Virus record (IMG/VR): IMGVR_UViG_3300042287_000308
Span: 1-26,561 of that record
Strand: one strand, 5' to 3'
Length of the DNA: 26,561 nt
Source: a virus
A program made the translations under genes and the position numbers. The notes under the pieces were generated by a model. That model worked only from the letters and a program-made list of their open reading frames with translations, made no database searches and was not told where the DNA came from. Positions within the stretch are counted from its first letter, which is position 1. Every line of letters begins with the position of its first letter. This document shows, piece after piece, positions 3,454 through 25,489 of the stretch.

Positions 3454-5169
3454 TTATATCCTTTTGAGTAGAAGGTCAAACTGCTTTTTCTTTAGGTCTA
3501 GCAACTCAAGGCCATTGTCAATTACTTCATCAATCTCTGGCTGTGCCTTTAGCTTGTTGACCACATCGGTAATCAAGTTAGCGTTGGCCTCGTCAAGTTC
3601 CTCACCAGACTCTAGCTTTAGCAGGGCATCAGCTAGCTGGTCAGGGTTGATGGTTTGGGCTGATCTAACCTGTGCGGTTGTTGCTTCATAGGCTGGAAAG
3701 CTCACGATTGACACCTCGAATAATCTGACAGATTCTAGGGTTCTAGTCTGTCCGTTGGTTGACCATGAGTCTTTGATGACATTGAAGCCAAAGCTCATTG
3801 AATCTATAACCTTAGTGCGCAATAGCTCGGCAATGTCCCTGCCTCGGGTTGTGTTGGGAAGTTGGGCAGTTACCTTTAGGCCTCGGTTGTCCTCGACCAA
3901 CTGCATAGTGCCACCTCTTAGGGAAGCCAGTGGCTCACCTGAGTCATGGTTCCAAAGTAACTTTACCTCGTTGCGAGATTGTAGCGAGCGCTTGAAAGCA
4001 CCAGGGGCAACATACTCGATGAAGCCACCAAGGTCCTCGGATGGGGAATTGAAAACAGAGGCGTAGCCGGTAAAGCTCATGCCGTCACCCTCAGCCCTGA
4101 CCTCAAAGTCAACGCTGTTGGTTCTTATCTCTGGCTCTTTAGTCTGTGGGCCGTCAATCTTTAGTGCGATTGCTCTAGCGACCTTTAGCCACTTGTCTTT
4201 GTTATCCATGCGGTTTCTTTCCTCTGCTCTGATTCTAGCAACTACTGAATCAGCGTAGTCTTGGGTTCTCTGTGCTGCTCTCTTGCTTGGACCTGATCCC
4301 CAAAGTAAGTGCGCCACTACACCTGCTGATGGATAGTTGTCTGAGTCTGGGTTGGCATCTGGTGCATCAAGGTCAACTAGGTGTCTAGCAATCCAAGCAG
4401 CTATGCGAATCCACTTGTCATCACTTACGCGACCTTCAGCCATCTCTCTAGCTTCTCTGATTGTCTTAGGTGTTACGCCGTCACCGGCAAGACCTTCCTC
4501 GTAATACTCAAGTCCACGCCGAGCTGCTGCTCTCATGTAGGCAGGGGCTTCTTGGTTTATAGCTCGTTCCTCATCATTGGATTCCCAAGCATTGCAGTAG
4601 TAGCCACCATCAACAAAGTCATCCCAACGCTCACACCAGGCTTTGTCGCCCTCAGCGTTCACTCTTGACTCGTCAAAAAAGAAACAGTTGCCACAAGCCC
4701 TGCCCTCTGGAACATCCTCAGATAGAGCTGGTCTGTAATTGTCTGGCAGGTTAGCACCCTCGTCATCAGGCTCGTCAATTTCCTCGACCTCTTCCATCTC
4801 GACAGCAATCATCTTTGGCGTTGGTATCTTTTCAAGCTGGAATACATTTATGACCATCATCTTGTCGGTTGGCTCAAAGATGCCATCTTCATATTCGAAC
4901 AATCTGACCACAGCAAACTGCTCTTGAACTGCCTCGACCTGAGCTGCAACTCTTGGATCAAGTGGTGCCCAAGATACAAAGTCACCAACTTCTAGTGAGC
5001 CAACTGCTGCTCTTTCGCCAACAAACTCAGTTCCCTCGTCAATGCTGATAGCGACAGCTTGGTCAATGGCTGATTCTTTTGAGTCATGGCAACCGATTGA
5101 TTCGCCATCCTCTTTCTCAACAGCCCAGTTAGGGCAGTCAGGGTTGGTCTGTGTAATGTAATAGGGCAT
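3454..5169 (-). CDS. Capsid maturation protease (HK97 prohead protease, U35-like) with long multidomain N-terminus
   Basis: This 571-residue protein cleaves the capsid delta domain during prohead maturation. The protease domain occupies residues about 355-505: ASVFNSPSEDLGG, the catalytic His in LLWNHDSGEP (H408), the catalytic Ser in DSMSFGF (S457 or S459), then EVSIVSFPAY. The N-terminal 350 residues are extra. Residues 1-50 form a small MPYYITQTNPDC-type domain, 57-117 an SH3/tudor-like strand region (VGDFVSW), and 159-194 a Cys cluster (C159, C162, C179, C192). Residues 210-320 form a helical region with GLEYYEEGLAGDGV and VVAHLLWGSG. A TTG seven codons upstream was rejected in favour of ATG at 5167-5169, two bases after the preceding stop. 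Similar extra domains occur with capsid-related genes of other actinophages, by recall. Confidence 0.88.
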   Translation of the reverse strand: MPYYITQTNPDCPNWAVEKEDGESIGCHDSKESAIDQAVAISIDEGTEFVGERAAVGSLEVGDFVSWAPLDPRVAAQVEAVQEQFAVVRLFEYEDGIFEPTDKMMVINVFQLEKIPTPKMIAVEMEEVEEIDEPDDEGANLPDNYRPALSEDVPEGRACGNCFFFDESRVNAEGDKAWCERWDDFVDGGYYCNAWESNDEERAINQEAPAYMRAAARRGLEYYEEGLAGDGVTPKTIREAREMAEGRVSDDKWIRIAAWIARHLVDLDAPDANPDSDNYPSAGVVAHLLWGSGPSKRAAQRTQDYADSVVARIRAEERNRMDNKDKWLKVARAIALKIDGPQTKEPEIRTNSVDFEVRAEGDGMSFTGYASVFNSPSEDLGGFIEYVAPGAFKRSLQSRNEVKLLWNHDSGEPLASLRGGTMQLVEDNRGLKVTAQLPNTTRGRDIAELLRTKVIDSMSFGFNVIKDSWSTNGQTRTLESVRLFEVSIVSFPAYEATTAQVRSAQTINPDQLADALLKLESGEELDEANANLITDVVNKLKAQPEIDEVIDNGLELLDLKKKQFDLLLKRI

Positions 5170-8891: not shown

Positions 8892-10010
8892 CTAATCTCC
8901 CTGAGCTGGCAGTAGCTCAGCTTTCTGACCTGTGAGTTTTTCCCAGCGTTCGAGAATAACATCGCAATACTTTGGGTCCATTTCAATCACAAAGGATTTT
9001 TTGTTGGCTTGTTCACAAGCAATCAAAGTGGTTCCAGAGCCAGCAAACATATCAACGATGTTTGTTTCTTGAATTGAGTTCAAGCAGTATGCAACCAAGT
9101 CAACAGGCTTGACAGTTGGATGAAACTTTTCAATCGCTCGTTTGCTTTCAAAAACATTCGCTCCATAAAAAGGTGAGCCATTGTGACCCCAATACCAAAC
9201 AAACTCATGGCAAGGTTCAAATCGGTGCATCCTGTGTTGGATTGGTTTGACCCAAACAATCAAAGACTTTGGTTTGCCAATGCTCTGTGTTGCTCCCAGA
9301 AACTCGCCTGCTGTCTTGGCATCACCACAGATAAACATTGTTTCAGCAGAAACTTGTGAGATGGCTTTTGCAATCACATCAGCAAACTCAGCACCATCAT
9401 TTTGGATGCTGGACTTGTCAGACTTTTTGACATAGTTGAAGCCATATGGTGGGTCGGTAAAGATGGCGTATTTTTCTTTGCCAAAATGCATCTTTGAATA
9501 TGTTGATGCATCTGTCGAGTCTCCACAAACAAGAACATGATTGCCCAACTGCCAAGCATCACCAAGTGCAACTCTGCTTGGTGCAGACTCTGGTATTTCA
9601 TCCTCAACAATTTCATCTGGATTCGCTGGCATCTCCAAAGGTTCAAAGCCAAACTCAGCAAGCTCCCAACCCTCGGCCTCAAGTTCAAGCAGTTGAGATG
9701 TCAAGACCTCTTGGTTCCAGTTGGCAAGCTCGGCTGTGCGATTGTCGGCGATTGCAAAAGCTTTGACTTTATCTGGAGTCCAGTCATTTGGAATTTTCAC
9801 AATTTCAATATCAGTCCAGCCCAATCGCTTGGCTGCTTCGACAGTTCCATTGCCTGCAACAATCACACCAGCCTCGGTGATGACGATTGGTTTGCGTTGC
9901 CCAAACTCTTTCAGGCTTGCCATGATTGCGCTCAGGTTTTTTTCATCGTGCTGTCGAGCGTTCTTTGGGTCAGGCGTCAGCTCAGCGATGCGTAGGGTTT
10001 CAATGTTCAT
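8892..10010 (-). CDS. ParB-like domain fused to a DNA N4/N6 methyltransferase
   Basis: This 372-residue protein has two domains. Residues 1-95 are ParB/sulfiredoxin-like (LTPDPKNARQHDEKNL, IVAGNGTVEAAKRLG, and KAFAIADNRTAELA). Residues 145-365 are an amino-methyltransferase with the catalytic DPPYGFNY (186-193), HPTVKPVDL (297-305) and the SAM-binding FAGSGTT (322-328). The catalytic motif precedes the SAM motif, which is the beta-class order. It probably methylates adenine (DPPY) in phage DNA. Such fusions are common near terminases and may protect against host restriction or mark DNA for packaging; the latter is inference. It ends two bases before the small terminase start. Confidence 0.92.
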   Translation of the reverse strand: MNIETLRIAELTPDPKNARQHDEKNLSAIMASLKEFGQRKPIVITEAGVIVAGNGTVEAAKRLGWTDIEIVKIPNDWTPDKVKAFAIADNRTAELANWNQEVLTSQLLELEAEGWELAEFGFEPLEMPANPDEIVEDEIPESAPSRVALGDAWQLGNHVLVCGDSTDASTYSKMHFGKEKYAIFTDPPYGFNYVKKSDKSSIQNDGAEFADVIAKAISQVSAETMFICGDAKTAGEFLGATQSIGKPKSLIVWVKPIQHRMHRFEPCHEFVWYWGHNGSPFYGANVFESKRAIEKFHPTVKPVDLVAYCLNSIQETNIVDMFAGSGTTLIACEQANKKSFVIEMDPKYCDVILERWEKLTGQKAELLPAQGD

Positions 10011-10181: not shown

Positions 10182-10523
10182 CTAGCCGACATACCTGTTG
10201 CCCTTACGAGCGTTACAGGTGCGGTGCGCTGGAGCCAAAGGACTTTCTGGATTGCCTGGTATGAGGTGGTCTGCCTGTATCTGGGTGCGATCAGTAAAAG
10301 CTTGTTTACAAATGTGACAATGAGTAGCCGTTTCCCTCACCACCCTAGCCCGCTGGCGATAATCCCCCCCGTATAAAAAAGCCTTCCGTAGTTTTCTTTC
10401 TGGCGAATAGACTCGGGGTGCCTTCTCTCTTGGTTTTCTTTCCAGCCGGCAAGCATCGCAATACTCTGACCTAGCCTTGAATAGTGCCTTGCACTTGAGG
10501 CAGGGCTTAGGGAATACGATCAT
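10182..10523 (-). CDS. HNH endonuclease (packaging-associated type)
   Basis: This 113-residue protein begins with a CLKCKALFKAR zinc knuckle and a second pair, YCDAC. A basic linker leads to the HNH core: CHICKQAF, then ADHLIPG (D-H) and HRTCNARKGN (H...N). Small HNH proteins beside terminases are needed for DNA packaging in HK97-like phages, which is the likely role here. An ATG 15 bases further upstream is possible. The ATG at 10521-10523 is preferred because it forms an ATGA overlap with the upstream zinc-ribbon stop. Confidence 0.85.
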   Translation of the reverse strand: MIVFPKPCLKCKALFKARSEYCDACRLERKPREKAPRVYSPERKLRKAFLYGGDYRQRARVVRETATHCHICKQAFTDRTQIQADHLIPGNPESPLAPAHRTCNARKGNRYVG

Positions 10524-10693
10524 CCGTCTTTGCCCCATCCGATACCCATGAAGGTTACTGCTGGTGGGTCGTACACTCTTACTAAGTCTTTGACACAGTT
10601 GGCACAGAGCGGTGTCCTATCTGGCTCGTCTATCTTTCTTATGACAGACATCTTGAGGTCACAGGTCTTGCACTTGTAATCGTATGTAGGCAT
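10520..10693 (-). CDS. Small zinc-ribbon protein, FmdB-like (57 aa)
   Basis: A 57-codon frame begins MPTYDYKCKTCD and carries two Cys pairs, C8/C11 and C30/C33. The P-x-Y-x-Y-x-C-x2-C start is the hallmark of FmdB/zinc-ribbon regulatory proteins. Its ATG overlaps the stop of the methyltransferase frame upstream, and its TGA overlaps the next HNH start (ATGA). It probably binds one zinc; the partner is unknown. It may act with the neighbouring HNH protein, but that is inference. Confidence 0.8.
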   Translation of the reverse strand: MPTYDYKCKTCDLKMSVIRKIDEPDRTPLCANCVKDLVRVYDPPAVTFMGIGWGKDG

Positions 10694-11622
10694 TAGTTTC
10701 TTTCTAGTATTTCCTTGATGCCTAGCAAGCTAAGGGCTAGCTCTGCTTGCTGAGGCACTACTCCGTTGCCACAGGCTTTCAGCTCATCGTTACGCTTGAG
10801 TCCGATGTCTGTTATCCAGCCTTCAGGTAGTCCCATCATCCACTCTGTGAACTTAGATGAGAGTCTATGGTTTCCTTCTTTGCCGTCTGGTTTGGTTGGC
10901 TCTGGTGCTGGTCTGCCGATAATAGCTTCCCAGCGTCTTATGGCTGGCTCGAACTTACCCCAGTTGGTAAGCAGTACTTGATCCTCAATGCGTGACTTAG
11001 GTGCACCTGCCTGAACTTGTTTGCTTGATGAGTTATAGTTGCCGGCTCTTGGTGTGCCAAGTAATACCTCACCACTATTGATTACTGCTCTGGCTACTGT
11101 GTCTGTCTGCACCTTGCCATCTCTTTCATGTGGCTCTGAGCCATCCTTGTAATCCCTTGTGGTTGGTGTTGGGAATAGGTCGGGTTTGTGGAATACCTGA
11201 GCCAGTGTTACCGAGTGCATTGAACCTGGCTTTTGCTGTGTGCTTGACAAGTTGCCTGTGTATTGATCACTAACTGTTGGGGTAGGCAGATTGTTGGCTT
11301 CTCTACTTACTTTGTGGCCTTGCAACTTAGCCAAGTCCATAGCTTGATCTCTAATGCCAACTGTGTTGCCTCGCCTTCGAGCCTCATCCTCACCTAGTGC
11401 GCCACCCTCGCCCGAACTAGCTATTGGGGTGCGCAACAATAAAGACTCTGAATCGTTGGTGTGGAGCTCCGGCATCACTAGCTCGTACACCTGACCATCG
11501 AGCATCGTACCCGATGTCTGCCAAGTCCCCAAGAACGGCTCCGATAGCTCTAAGAGCTGGCTTTCCGTTGAGTGTTCCCAATACTTCATCTGTGTATTCC
11601 ATACCATTGTTGGCTTTTGCAC
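10693..11622 (-). CDS. Second frame of the cytosine methyltransferase locus (target-recognition-like region, motif X)
   Basis: This 309-residue frame is +1 relative to the methyltransferase catalytic frame and overlaps it by 206 bases. It contains a spaced (L/F)-x-T-P motif four times: LRTP (63-66), LPTPTVSD (112-119), FPTPTTRD (150-157) and LGTPRAGN (188-195). It ends with WMMGLPEGW and the motif X-like GNGVVPQQA (285-293). The first repeat, and an upstream TWQTSGTM segment (33-40), are encoded inside the overlap. The first codon, GTG at 11620-11622, has no visible Shine-Dalgarno, so the protein may arise by internal initiation or by +1 frameshifting from 11417-11974. It probably supplies target recognition to the catalytic part. 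The true N-terminus is uncertain. Confidence 0.7.
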   Translation of the reverse strand: MQKPTMVWNTQMKYWEHSTESQLLELSEPFLGTWQTSGTMLDGQVYELVMPELHTNDSESLLLRTPIASSGEGGALGEDEARRRGNTVGIRDQAMDLAKLQGHKVSREANNLPTPTVSDQYTGNLSSTQQKPGSMHSVTLAQVFHKPDLFPTPTTRDYKDGSEPHERDGKVQTDTVARAVINSGEVLLGTPRAGNYNSSSKQVQAGAPKSRIEDQVLLTNWGKFEPAIRRWEAIIGRPAPEPTKPDGKEGNHRLSSKFTEWMMGLPEGWITDIGLKRNDELKACGNGVVPQQAELALSLLGIKEILERN

Positions 11623-11974
11623 TTAGTAAACCCCTAACATTTTCGATAACAACTAATTTTGGTTTGATTTCTTGTATTGCTCGGTAAAACTCTGACCATA
11701 AGCCTGAGCGAGTTCCATCCTGTAATCCTGCTCGCTTACCTGCCAGAGATAAATCCTGACAAGGAAAGCCACCTGTGAGTATGTCAACTGGCTCAACCTG
11801 TGTGAAGTCAACCTTGCTTACATCTCGGTAGTTTGGAACGCCTGGAAAGTGTGCCTCAAGTATCTGACTTGGTGCATCTTCCCACTCACAATGCCAAGCA
11901 ACCTCAGCACCTGTTAGCTTTGTTACAGCTAAGTCAAGACCGCCGTATCCGCTGAATAAGCTCCCAATTTTCAT
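11417..11974 (-). CDS. C5-cytosine DNA methyltransferase, catalytic part (motifs I-VIII)
   Basis: This 185-residue frame has motif I FSGYGGLDLA (7-16), motif IV GGFPCQDLS with catalytic C72, motif VI ENVRG (111-115) and motif VIII QRFRVF (173-178). It stops after FIVAHPNS. Complete m5C methyltransferases are usually 300-450 residues with a target-recognition domain and motifs IX and X. Those parts are absent here but appear in the +1 frame downstream (10693-11622). The stop is a TAG at 11417-11419. Two-polypeptide m5C enzymes such as M.AquI are known, so this can be a natural split. A frameshift mutation or an assembly error is the alternative. The start overlaps the phosphoesterase stop by four bases. 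Confidence 0.85.
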   Translation of the reverse strand: MKIGSLFSGYGGLDLAVTKLTGAEVAWHCEWEDAPSQILEAHFPGVPNYRDVSKVDFTQVEPVDILTGGFPCQDLSLAGKRAGLQDGTRSGLWSEFYRAIQEIKPKLVVIENVRGLLSAKANNGMEYTDEVLGTLNGKPALRAIGAVLGDLADIGYDARWSGVRASDAGAPHQRFRVFIVAHPNS

Positions 11975-13116
11975 AGCTTGTAAACAGTTCCGGTGAAGTC
12001 AACACCCTTGTCAAGCACAAAGGTTACTAAGCCTGGCACAGAGTCCTCGCCTGAGCGTAATCTCCACCAGCCTGAGCCGTTGTCCATAGTGCTGGCCTGA
12101 ATCCAGAAGCGCGATGATCCTCTTGAGGTTGAGCCAAGCTCTAGCACTCTGAGGTGATGGAAGTGTCCAGATACCCCGATGGTTGCATCACCCACAGGCT
12201 GCTTACCAAAGGCTTGCTGTCGCCACCAGGTAGGCACTTGGTCTGGTCTTGGGCTTTGGTGTCCATGCCAGATACCGAGTATGTGGAACTGGTCGTCAAA
12301 GATGTCTATGGCTAATGACTCGTCATGCTTTTGAGGTTCATAGAACTTGATGGGCATCTGTGTTTCTTTTGCCAGCCTTGCAAGTGTGCGCCCGATGTGA
12401 ATACCCCAGTCATCGGTTGGTGTGCCTTGTTGCTTACCCCTGACACGCCATTGGCAATGGTTCGAGCCAACTGATGCGTAAGTGATGTCATTGCTGTATT
12501 GAGCGAGTAGCTTCAAGTGATCCCAAGCTAGGGTAGTTGCGATGTCAACCTGTTGCATTGGGCTGAGGTCGTTGCTCTGAAGCTGATTGCCACCTGTGTT
12601 GTCAAAGCCCTCTACTGTGTCACCTAAGTCAACAAAGATAACCTTGGCTGGTTTCTCTCGCTTGAGCAGGGCAGTTAGCTTTTCTTTTGTTTCCTCTACT
12701 CTGGCAAGCATGGCTTCGATGCCGCCTCGATGGTCAACCTTGCCAACCTGTAAGTCAGACCAAAGAATTACTAAAGCCTTTTCAGAAGTCGTTCTGAATT
12801 CTTTCTTAGGCTTTATGCCTTTCTTGGCTTGTGAGTAAAGCAATGGCAGGTCAAGGTTTGCCACCCTGCGCCTGAAGGTAAAGCGATAGCTTGATAGCCA
12901 TTCGCCGTCATAGCGTTGCCAGCGTGATGTGCGTGGTGTTCCGGTTACCTCAAACTCATCTGGATCAAAGCCCTGCTGGGTTAGGAAGTCATCAAAGCTA
13001 GGTACACCTGATGTTGCTGGTAGTTGTGCCCAGCCTTCGTTGCCGTCAAACTCAAAGGCAGGTCGGTACTCTTTAGGCGTTTCTACTTTTGGTGCCGGTT
13101 CTAAGTTATCTAGCAC
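11971..13116 (-). CDS. Calcineurin-like metallophosphoesterase
   Basis: This is a dinuclear-metal phosphoesterase of about 381 residues. Ordered motifs in the C-terminal two thirds are SDLQVGKVD (D-x), VDLGDTVEG (GD-x-x-[ED]), GSNHCQ (GNH-type), WHGHQSP (H) and SGHFHHLR (GHxH). The N-terminal 110 residues are Pro/aromatic-rich and lack a recognised fold. By recall, related phage phosphoesterases often follow a small HTH protein, as here. The substrate is unknown; nucleic acid ends or a nucleotide are possible. A TTG at 13144-13146 also opens this frame. The GTG at 13114-13116 is chosen because AGGAAAG lies nine bases upstream and the HTH stop is only eight bases further on. Confidence 0.85.
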   Translation of the reverse strand: MLDNLEPAPKVETPKEYRPAFEFDGNEGWAQLPATSGVPSFDDFLTQQGFDPDEFEVTGTPRTSRWQRYDGEWLSSYRFTFRRRVANLDLPLLYSQAKKGIKPKKEFRTTSEKALVILWSDLQVGKVDHRGGIEAMLARVEETKEKLTALLKREKPAKVIFVDLGDTVEGFDNTGGNQLQSNDLSPMQQVDIATTLAWDHLKLLAQYSNDITYASVGSNHCQWRVRGKQQGTPTDDWGIHIGRTLARLAKETQMPIKFYEPQKHDESLAIDIFDDQFHILGIWHGHQSPRPDQVPTWWRQQAFGKQPVGDATIGVSGHFHHLRVLELGSTSRGSSRFWIQASTMDNGSGWWRLRSGEDSVPGLVTFVLDKGVDFTGTVYKL

Positions 13117-13327
13117 AGCTACACGCTTTCCTGCGATGAGCCACAATGGGCTTCTCGCTAATGGTTATGCCCCTAGCCGTTAGTTGCCTGGCTAATGATG
13201 TTGAGGTGAATTGCTCGTTAGCTATGGCAGCTACAAGAATGGCTTGATCCTTCGTGTCCAGAGTTTCCAGTATCGTTCTTACTTTGCAGGATGATTTCCT
13301 CACCTGTGGTGTTAGTCCTTCTAGCAT
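13106..13327 (-). CDS. Small helix-turn-helix protein
   Basis: This 73-residue protein has helices in ETLDTKDQAILVAAIANEQF followed by FTSTSLARQLTARGITISEK and VAHRRKACSC, the spacing of a helix-turn-helix with a basic recognition segment and terminal Cys residues. GAAAGGGG six bases before the ATG (13325-13327) is the strongest ribosome binding site in this neighbourhood. That supports this start even though it lies 110 bases inside the preceding gene. It overlaps the phosphoesterase start. It could be a small DNA-binding regulator; the target is unknown. Confidence 0.7.
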   Translation of the reverse strand: MLEGLTPQVRKSSCKVRTILETLDTKDQAILVAAIANEQFTSTSLARQLTARGITISEKPIVAHRRKACSCAR

Positions 13328-23870: not shown

Positions 23871-24197
23871 CTATTCGATTTCAGGAGCTACCCAAAGGCA
23901 GGTTTCTTCATCGAGTACCCAAGACTCATCTGGCTTTGGTGGGATGAAAGCATCACGCCCAGCATCGTAGGTATAACCAAGACCAGCGTAGTTCTTACGG
24001 AAAGCCTTAGACTGGTCTGCTGCTGGCTCGTTGGTTGCAGGGTCATAGTAAACGCCAGCCCTAGTGTTGAAAGATGTTTGCTTGTAGGTGTCACCTGTGC
24101 GCTCCGACAGTTCTGCCTCTTTGCCGTCATCTTCCTGTCTGCCGACAGTGACAAAGATTACGATGTTGTTTTCATCGAGTTTTGCAAAATGACTCAT
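23871..24197 (-). CDS. Tail fibre-associated conserved protein (108 aa)
   Basis: This 108-residue protein starts MSHFAKLDENNIVIFVTVG. It contains KQTSFNTRAGVYYDP, FRKNYAGLGYTYDAGRDAFI and a C-terminal SWVLDEETCLWVAPEI. The KNYAG-x-GYTYD...F-x-x-P-KP...SW-x-LDE pattern is widespread in marine and freshwater phages (by recall, also in cyanophages), in proteins lying next to tail-fibre genes. It overlaps the glycine-rich fibre gene by four bases. The function is unproven; fibre assembly or virion attachment is inferred from context. Confidence 0.8.
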   Translation of the reverse strand: MSHFAKLDENNIVIFVTVGRQEDDGKEAELSERTGDTYKQTSFNTRAGVYYDPATNEPAADQSKAFRKNYAGLGYTYDAGRDAFIPPKPDESWVLDEETCLWVAPEIE

Positions 24198-25252
24198 GAG
24201 AAAGTTACCGTTTCGCTCGTAGTTGATGTGGCTGTTACAACATAAACTTTTTTACCGCTAATAGTGCTGTTTGTTTGTGTTACCCCACCCGAAAAGCTAA
24301 CAGTAGTCGAAGTAGGGACTGTAAAGATAATAATACCAGAGCCGCCATTACCAGCACTAGCGTTAAACTCCGTGCCACCGCCACCGCCCCCTGTGTTAAC
24401 AGTGCCGTTTCCACCGTTATTGGTGTCAATAGCGCCATTTCCACCGCCACCAGTTCCACCTGTTCCGCCAGCGACTGCTGAGCCACCACCGCCACCACCA
24501 CCGCCTCTAGTAACAGAAGAACCAGTAATCGATGAAGCTAAGCCATTGCCGCCATTACTTCCACTTCCATTGCCAGCTGTTACTGGTGAGCCTGTTGAAC
24601 CTGCCCCACCACCACCAGCTCCACCACCGAAAGAAGCGTTTCCAGCACCACCATTAGTTCCTTGTAATAATGTGCCAAGTCCACCTGCAGTTCGGTCACG
24701 GAATCCACCACCACCAGAACCACCGCTAGATACATTCGCGTTAGTGCTTTGACCACCACCGCCACCGGTACAAGCAATTTGTGTAAGGAGTGAGGGAGAA
24801 CCTTGAGAACCACCATTGTTATTGCTTGTAGCACCAGCGCCACCAGCTCCAACGATAATTGCAAATGTGCCATTAACAATACTTGTGGGGAACTCAGCAG
24901 TAACAGAACCACCGCTTAGCTCACCCTGAACATTGTTGCGATAACCACCAGCTCCACCACCACCAGCAGCAGCACCAGAGGAGAAAACACCGCCACCACC
25001 ACCGCCACCGATTACTAAGTATTCCAAAGTTGGGGCAGCAGGAGCTAAAGAAGCGTAAGCTGTGCCGTTCCAAAACTCGAAGGTGTCGGTATCAGCTAGG
25101 TAAGTAACCATTCCCTCTGTTGCTGTGGCAGTGCTGATAGCAGAGGCCCTAGCTGCTGTGCCAGCAAAGGTCATAACAGCCTGGTCCATCAAGTAGGTGT
25201 TAACATCCGCTGCCGCTAAAACTTCTCCAGCAGTAAATACTTTTCTTGGCAT
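24194..25252 (-). CDS. Glycine-rich tail fibre / receptor-binding protein
   Basis: This 352-residue protein has a 70-residue N-terminal module, MPRKVFTAGEVLAAADVN through YLADTDTFEFWNGTAYASL, probably the virion-anchoring part. After a short linker, residues about 80-300 are a poly-glycine region (VIGGGGGGG, GGGGAGGYRNN, IVGAGGAGAT and similar). Such regions form polyglycine-II sandwiches in phage adhesins. The last 45 residues are Ser/Thr-rich beta (ISGKKVYVVTATST). It is a likely host-binding fibre. The N-terminal module is duplicated as a separate gene immediately upstream. AAGGA precedes the ATG. Confidence 0.85.
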   Translation of the reverse strand: MPRKVFTAGEVLAAADVNTYLMDQAVMTFAGTAARASAISTATATEGMVTYLADTDTFEFWNGTAYASLAPAAPTLEYLVIGGGGGGGVFSSGAAAGGGGAGGYRNNVQGELSGGSVTAEFPTSIVNGTFAIIVGAGGAGATSNNNGGSQGSPSLLTQIACTGGGGGQSTNANVSSGGSGGGGFRDRTAGGLGTLLQGTNGGAGNASFGGGAGGGGAGSTGSPVTAGNGSGSNGGNGLASSITGSSVTRGGGGGGGGSAVAGGTGGTGGGGNGAIDTNNGGNGTVNTGGGGGGTEFNASAGNGGSGIIIFTVPTSTTVSFSGGVTQTNSTISGKKVYVVTATSTTSETVTFS

Positions 25253-25285: not shown

Positions 25286-25489
25286 TTATAGTGGTAGAAA
25301 GCTAGTGCCGTTGTAAAACTCAAAAGTATTCGTATCAGCTAGGTAAGTCAGCATACCCTCAGTAGGCGTAGGAATGGCAGAACCTCTAGCAGCCGTTCCA
25401 GCAAAGGTCATAACCATCTGATTCATCAGAAACGAGTTTACATCCGAGGCTGCAAGAACCTCGCCAGCGGTAAATACTTTTCTAGGCAT
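25286..25489 (-). CDS. Stand-alone copy of the tail-fibre N-terminal module (67 aa)
   Basis: This 67-residue protein is a near copy of the first 69 residues of the following fibre. The first 14 residues (MPRKVFTAGEVLAA) are identical, VMTFAGTAAR is shared, and about three quarters of positions match. It stops where the fibre continues into its linker, right after NGTSFLPL. The ribosome-binding context (TTGTTTTCCTT on the plus strand) is also duplicated. It could be the anchor left after loss of an earlier adhesin tip, or a real small baseplate part. Substitutions are mostly conservative, which suggests it is still under selection. Confidence 0.8.
   Translation of the reverse strand: MPRKVFTAGEVLAASDVNSFLMNQMVMTFAGTAARGSAIPTPTEGMLTYLADTNTFEFYNGTSFLPL

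Follow-up and report, generated by a model that had tools for sequence, protein, structure and literature searches.

Overlapping reading frames of a phage cytosine-5 methyltransferase locus probably encode two subunits, one with exchangeable cassettes

When the catalytic half of a phage DNA methyltransferase ends at a stop codon and the remaining motifs lie in another frame, is the gene broken, is it read through by a frameshift, or are there two genes sharing the same DNA? This question is raised by a locus on the minus strand of the viral record IMGVR_UViG_3300042287_000308 (26,561 nucleotides, analyzed at full length and denoted the window), in which a catalytic open reading frame (11974-11417, 185 aa) is overlapped over 206 nt by a second frame, in +1 (ORF2, 11622-10693, 309 aa). 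We consider it likely (probability of roughly 0.8) that the pair encodes a heterodimeric DNA (cytosine-5) methyltransferase, whose GTG-initiated ORF2 subunit would carry exchangeable cassettes that set the target. The observed basis of this model is that both frames are selected, the start of ORF2 is conserved, the cassettes are shuffled and the arrangement is widespread.

The two frames and their parts

The catalytic ORF (alpha subunit, 11417-11974, minus strand) carries motifs I to VIII, including SLFSGYGG, GGFPCQ, ENV and QRFRVFI, and ends in ...QRFRVFIVAHPNS-TAG; this 185-aa end is common to most close relatives of the window. Motifs I, IV (PCQ), VI (ENV) and VIII (QRxR) are present in order, which places the protein in the C5-cytosine DNA methyltransferase superfamily. 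It matches only the N-terminal half of the Pfam profile PF00145 (positions 1-163 of 324; E = 2.6e-38), as well as the PHROG family phrog_363 'DNA methyltransferase' (E = 2e-68), and scores above the TIGR00675 cut-off.

ORF2 (beta subunit, 10693-11622, minus strand) consists of an N-domain, four LxTP cassettes and a C-module with motifs IX and X. It matches phrog_1008 'DNA methyltransferase' (E = 8e-57); no Pfam, NCBIfam or PADLOC family match was found, and a sequence-profile search against solved structures detected no relative. The N-domain (11449-11613), with the pattern W-N-x5-W-E ... T-W-x2-S-G-x-M-x2-G, is coded wholly within the catalytic gene; its residues W8, W15, G38 and G43 are invariant in 73 sequences, and the segment TWQTSGTM corresponds to residues 33-40. 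The LxTP units start at residues 63, 112, 150 and 188, and belong to sequence clusters m2 (11290-11436, the first part still within the overlap), m8 (11176-11289), m3 (11062-11175) and m5 (10966-11061). The C-module (10723-10965) includes WGKFEPAIRRWE, the motif IX-like RLSSKFTEWMMGLP and motif X, GNGVVPQQ (GNGVVP at 10753-10770), with invariant columns. In the window, motifs IX and X are found on ORF2 only, and the catalytic ORF lacks both. The frames, coordinates and motifs given in the original prediction (I to VIII before the TAG at 11417-11974, GNGVVP in the +1 frame at 10693-11622) are thus confirmed by the ORFs and by the matches to PF00145 and phrog_1008, as is the placement of the first LxTP (residue 63) and of TWQTSGTM 5' of the TAG, with LxTP recurring at 112, 150 and 188.

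The genes are tightly packed, like those of a compact phage operon: the catalytic ATG shares bases with the stop codon of the preceding ORF, and the ORF2 stop with the ATG that follows. Directly upstream (11971-13146, minus strand), with a 4-nt overlap with the catalytic ATG, lies an ORF with an exonuclease PHROG match (phrog_284). The ATG that overlaps the ORF2 stop belongs to a 57-aa, zinc-ribbon-like ORF with two CxxC pairs (10520-10693, minus strand), followed by an HNH-like endonuclease ORF (10182-10538). A second methyltransferase, a fusion of a ParB-like N-terminal domain with an N6/N4 methylase domain, is encoded at 8892-10010 (minus strand). Elsewhere in the window, two adjacent minus-strand ORFs (24194-25252 and 25286-25489) have the common N-terminus MPRKVFTAGEVLAAxDVN, which suggests a tandem duplication of the start of a virion protein; the longer one (24194-25252) runs on into a glycine-rich repeat region.

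Selection across the overlap and the start of ORF2

Constraint on both frames over about 200 bases had been proposed from the sequence of the window itself, and comparison with relatives bears this out, far beyond chance. Among 55 diverged representatives (relatives at <80% nucleotide identity), the +1 frame is open across the overlap (11417-11622) in all 55, compared to 5.4 expected from shuffles that keep the catalytic amino acids and permute synonymous codons; shared ancestry means that the counts here and in the tests that follow are not statistically independent, but the size of the effect greatly outweighs this caveat. No excess was observed in two upstream +1 control regions (open in 1/55, with 1.1 expected, and in 0/55, with 1.4 expected), or for the +2 frame over the overlap (0/55). 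Of 41 C5-methyltransferase loci in other actinobacterial genomes, 20 passed the filters, 7 of this family and 13 outside it. The +1 frame is open in 7/7 family members; among the 13 outside the family, it is open in one, and the W-x2-SG-x-M signature is found in none (all 20 together, 8 open vs. 4.4 expected).

Synonymous differences, measured where two relatives encode the same amino acid, are reduced in codons 119-150 compared to upstream codons, in close pairs (0.064 vs. 0.190) as well as in middle pairs with 80-90% amino acid identity (0.301 vs. 0.521); in codons 151-184, the reduction is visible at larger distance only. In codons 119-142, third positions account for 0.35-0.38 of the changes, down from 0.50-0.57, and the first-position share rises. 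The first codon position of the catalytic frame is the third position of the +1 frame, and this shift implies that constraint is stronger on the +1 protein in that stretch. When a +1 profile built from the window clade was applied to 26 held-out distant genes (fused genes with <66% amino acid identity), all 26 scored 47-93 bits, and in each of them the real score was reached by 0/100 synonymous shuffles.

Part of the resemblance in the +1 frame follows from the catalytic protein, the W-x2-SG-x-M signature being the +1 reading of LADxGYDA, and shuffled distant genes still average 8-27 bits against the +1 profile, as expected if the +1 conservation were a passive shadow of the conserved motifs VI-VIII. 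However, such a shadow is rejected by the synonymous shuffles, the codon positions, the held-out profile and the unrelated enzymes: the openness of the frame, the synonymous suppression, the codon-position shift, the conservation of the start, the 0/100 shuffles in 26 genes and the lack of such a frame in 13 other C5-methyltransferases leave it exceedingly improbable. These observations indicate that both frames are under selection across the overlap.

The start of ORF2 is a GTG (11620-11622) directly after an in-frame TAA (11623-11625), with the sequence AGGGG (11631-11635) located 8 nt before it. Where a relative has an in-frame +1 stop shortly before this point, the next usable start codon falls at the position found in the window, catalytic nt 352, in 62/62 cases (GTG in 61, ATG in one, the latter turning a catalytic Ser into Asn). 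The preceding Arg is encoded by AGG, giving AGGGG 8 nt before the start, in 58/62 of the genes that must start there vs. 8/59 of the others. In these 59 relatives without the upstream stop, an ATG is present 21 nt earlier in 54, with GGTGG 5' of it in 32/59, compared to 1/62 among the relatives with the stop. The same start elements are kept in most of the cultured phages and GC-rich genomes examined, fused ones included. Judging by its position, AGGGG would act as a Shine-Dalgarno element.

The original prediction had left two options, a two-polypeptide enzyme with a dual-coding overlap or a +1 frameshift fusion; the former is supported, with enzymatic activity as the part predicted from sequence. 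A programmed +1 frameshift joining both frames into one polypeptide would fit the location of ORF2, in +1 and overlapping the catalytic 3' end, and the existence of fused relatives. However, ORF2 has its own conserved start with a Shine-Dalgarno-like element, and its first domain, of 60 residues, which lies 5' of any point where a shift would be useful, is conserved at the protein level. A shift near the stop would skip this domain. In addition, the length of the catalytic ORF varies (about 185-197 codons), and no fixed shift site was noticed on non-systematic inspection. Because the in-gene start and the upstream domain are conserved, we consider frameshifting very unlikely; the conserved start and the Shine-Dalgarno-like element argue for internal initiation, and two polypeptides produced in this way appear to be the best reading.

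Relatives of the locus and the LxTP cassettes

Searches of viral contigs with each ORF identified 155 loci, with the same +1 relation in nearly all. In a frame-by-frame survey that took in mycobacteriophages and actinobacterial genomes, the N-domain of ORF2 was in the +1 frame in 177/177 distinct loci; N-domain and C-module are combined in a single +1 ORF in 128 of these, the C-module is fused to the catalytic frame in 30, and the arrangement is different or incomplete in 19. A quick tree of the catalytic part requires at least 8 changes of state between fused and non-fused forms. Among cultured phages, 571 records match ORF2; the split form is found in Arthrobacter phage RedFox (gp42/43) and Mycobacterium phage Dorothy (gp71/72), the fused form in Daenerys (gp70), Aggie and prophi104-2, and in actinophages the two ORFs are annotated as paired methyltransferase genes. 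The deposited second-subunit starts of RedFox gp43 and Dorothy gp72 lie after or near the catalytic stop: gp43 (L158, 2777-3397) is annotated from a later start that loses 92 conserved +1 N-domain codons, and gp72 (L159, 2687-3238) from one that loses 62.

An assembly error or a recent frameshift mutation producing a pseudogene in one phage could look like this in a lone contig, and the catalytic frame is indeed interrupted in a single relative, L003, by a premature stop near 4037 (127 codons) that is probably due to a sequencing indel. Nevertheless, the same split is present in more than 100 independent metagenome contigs and in cultured phages (RedFox, Dorothy), so that a recent error is already refuted by the relatives and is hardly conceivable. 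Close relatives with one intact frame and an extra base near 11420, which the original prediction had named as the mark of an assembly error or a recent mutation, were not what was found; relatives with a 93-99% identical catalytic part are nearly all split as in the window. The +1 start of ORF2 in 177/177 loci and the same split in 128 imply that neither mutation nor assembly error is involved. Thus, the overlapping two-ORF arrangement, which recurs in hundreds of phages, is by these comparisons a conserved design and not a broken gene.

Decay of the +1 frame, expected in fused relatives, is ruled out. In the fused lineages, the frame is open in 18/18 representatives vs. 8.0 expected, synonymous differences remain suppressed (0.142 vs. 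0.463 at 70-80% identity), and the +1 start is kept in nearly all. The start and the first domain of ORF2 persist in the 30 loci with the C-terminal module on the catalytic frame; in the Rhodococcus phage ReT1v-1, for example, the full motifs are in frame 0 and the LxTP cassettes in +1. The +1 frame outlives the split, which argues that ORF2 is not merely a broken-off C-terminus, and the persistence of its N-domain and start suggests that it may do more than complete the enzyme. These patterns indicate a role for the N-domain and the cassettes that does not depend on having motifs IX-X in the same frame. The same persistence of start, N-domain and cassettes in 30 loci with IX-X already in the catalytic frame could be taken to mean that ORF2 is an independent protein (e.g. 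a regulator or an anti-restriction factor) that merely overlaps the gene and is no subunit. However, in the window and 127 other loci, the sole motifs IX-X are on ORF2, beside a catalytic part that lacks them, and we regard an independent protein as improbable.

The LxTP repeats delimit 575 segments with a median of 38 aa (IQR 33-44). Greedy clustering at 58% identity (single-linkage had chained most segments into one family) sorted the 540 segments of 22-60 aa into 122 clusters, 61 of them with at least 3 members, which occur at varied positions and with varied neighbours. The order is m2-m8-m3-m5 in the window, m2-m8-m18-m3-m5 in L228 and m17-m49-m72 in L028, two relatives with catalytic proteins 99% and 95% identical to that of the window, respectively. 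At the DNA level, a single cassette, cleanly inserted as 132 nt, sets L228 apart from the window, and in L028 every cassette is replaced between flanks that are 94-96% identical. Mean sharing of cassette sets declines with distance, to 0.32 among relatives with 93-97% catalytic identity and further to 0.07 among those with 78-83%. By this sequence evidence, the LxTP repeats are cassettes of about 38 aa shuffled between near-identical genes.

The cassettes are located between motifs VIII and IX, the target-recognition region of this enzyme class, and are probably interchangeable units that choose the methylated sequences. In two predicted structures, one of them of a fused homologue, they have low pLDDT and are mostly disordered, and any fold as recognition domains is putative. 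The fused homologue is modelled with confidence in its catalytic part and C-module (pLDDT 91-97) and finds its closest structural counterparts in M.HhaI and M.HaeIII; the model of fused homologue L027 also aligned over 498 columns, with a poor rmsd of 15.6, to a DNA cytosine C5-carboxymethyltransferase (PDB 8yf3). The low pLDDT in both models and the lack of a detected structural relative would be compatible with disordered linkers or products of repeat-driven slippage instead of target-recognition units, a real but minor possibility given the placement between motifs VIII and IX, the uniform size of about 38 aa, the dozens of distinct recurring sequence families and the exchange of whole units between otherwise near-identical genes.

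Proposed enzyme and known systems

In the model that we favor, ribosomes starting at 11974 would make the catalytic subunit with motifs I-VIII, and separate initiation at GTG 11622 would yield the second subunit, with the N-domain, four LxTP cassettes and the C-module (IX, X). The two would come together in trans as a single enzyme, with the N-domain probably docking on the catalytic subunit and the C-module completing the enzyme fold, and the pair would methylate DNA. The cassettes would set the target sequences, so that their exchange between phages would change specificity, conceivably for evasion of host restriction.

What seemed an oddity of one or two enzymes emerges as a design that phages have conserved, and the case for long dual coding in DNA phages is strong. 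This explains why the annotation of many phage methyltransferase genes shows two 'DNA methylase' genes that are truncated or overlap; such annotation loses the conserved N-domain. Should the cassettes be recognition units, phages reshuffle methylation specificity by swapping parts of about 38 residues, a possible way to evade restriction, and offer a ready source of programmable cytosine methylation modules. Two points go beyond the original prediction: fused relatives still have the +1 start and domain, and the LxTP repeats are shuffled cassettes. The subunit anatomy has precedents; what appears to be new is how widely dual coding is conserved, that fused forms keep the +1 frame and that the cassettes form a shuffled array. 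An open-literature search found no paper on any of these three, which is weak evidence of absence, and both window ORFs fall into PHROG 363 and PHROG 1008, family records without mention of the overlap.

M.AquI targets CYCGRG and M.EcoHK31I targets YGGCCR; Lee et al., in 1995, reportedly found the small subunit of the latter coded in an alternative frame within the large one. Both enzymes are precedents for a subunit split, as the original prediction had pointed out for M.AquI: the large subunit of M.AquI (alpha/beta) carries motifs I-VIII and the small one the distal variable region and IX-X, and in M.EcoHK31I, I-VIII and X are on one subunit and IX on the other (PMC3404938). The M.AquI partition is the same as that of the window pair. 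For M.AquI, we know of no shuffled cassette array or alternation between fused and split forms, which are features of the window family. M.EcoHK31I likewise needs two polypeptides, the second reportedly in an overlapping alternative frame, similar to the +1 overlap of the window, which is under selection. Compared by motif layout, however, the window has motif X on the +1 subunit and a catalytic subunit that stops after VIII.

The recognition domains of Bacillus phage enzymes are said, after Trautner et al. in 1996, to be about 38 aa long. In the Bacillus phage m5C methyltransferases (SPR, SPbeta, phi3T, rho11, H2), tandem target-recognition domains confer several targets (PMC8936443). The shuffled cassettes of about 38 aa between VIII and IX in the window family resemble these tandem domains. 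However, the Bacillus phage enzymes are single polypeptides, whereas the window has two ORFs, with the cassettes mostly on a separate, dual-coded subunit. We know of no LxTP signature in those multispecific enzymes.

Searches with distant +1 ORFs identified loci in phages of Acinetobacter, Salmonella, Klebsiella, Vibrio, Pseudomonas, Synechococcus and Microcystis and on Leptospira and Acinetobacter plasmids, and a genome scan found one on a MAG contig labelled archaeal. A search of plasmids for relatives of M.EcoHK31I turned up further +1 examples, though M.EcoHK31I was not among them. In Salmonella phage W5_chr3 (L347, 1614-2543), the annotated 'Mte8-like' gene is the +1 frame, with LPTP and motif IX, and the catalytic frame on the same DNA carries no annotation. 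The loci from other phyla have motifs I-VIII and X in frame 0 and motif IX on the +1 ORF, i.e. the M.EcoHK31I motif distribution, with a TWPRSGMM-type signature and LPTP in most of the +1 ORFs. There is about an even chance that all these represent a phage m5C class spanning several phyla, with a constant catalytic frame and a +1 subunit that has tandem LxTP cassettes as individual, combinatorially exchanged recognition units, in which IX and X switch frames between split and fused forms and the +1 start is nearly always kept. By motif layout, the window belongs to a variant whose +1 subunit has also taken over X, as in the partition of M.AquI.
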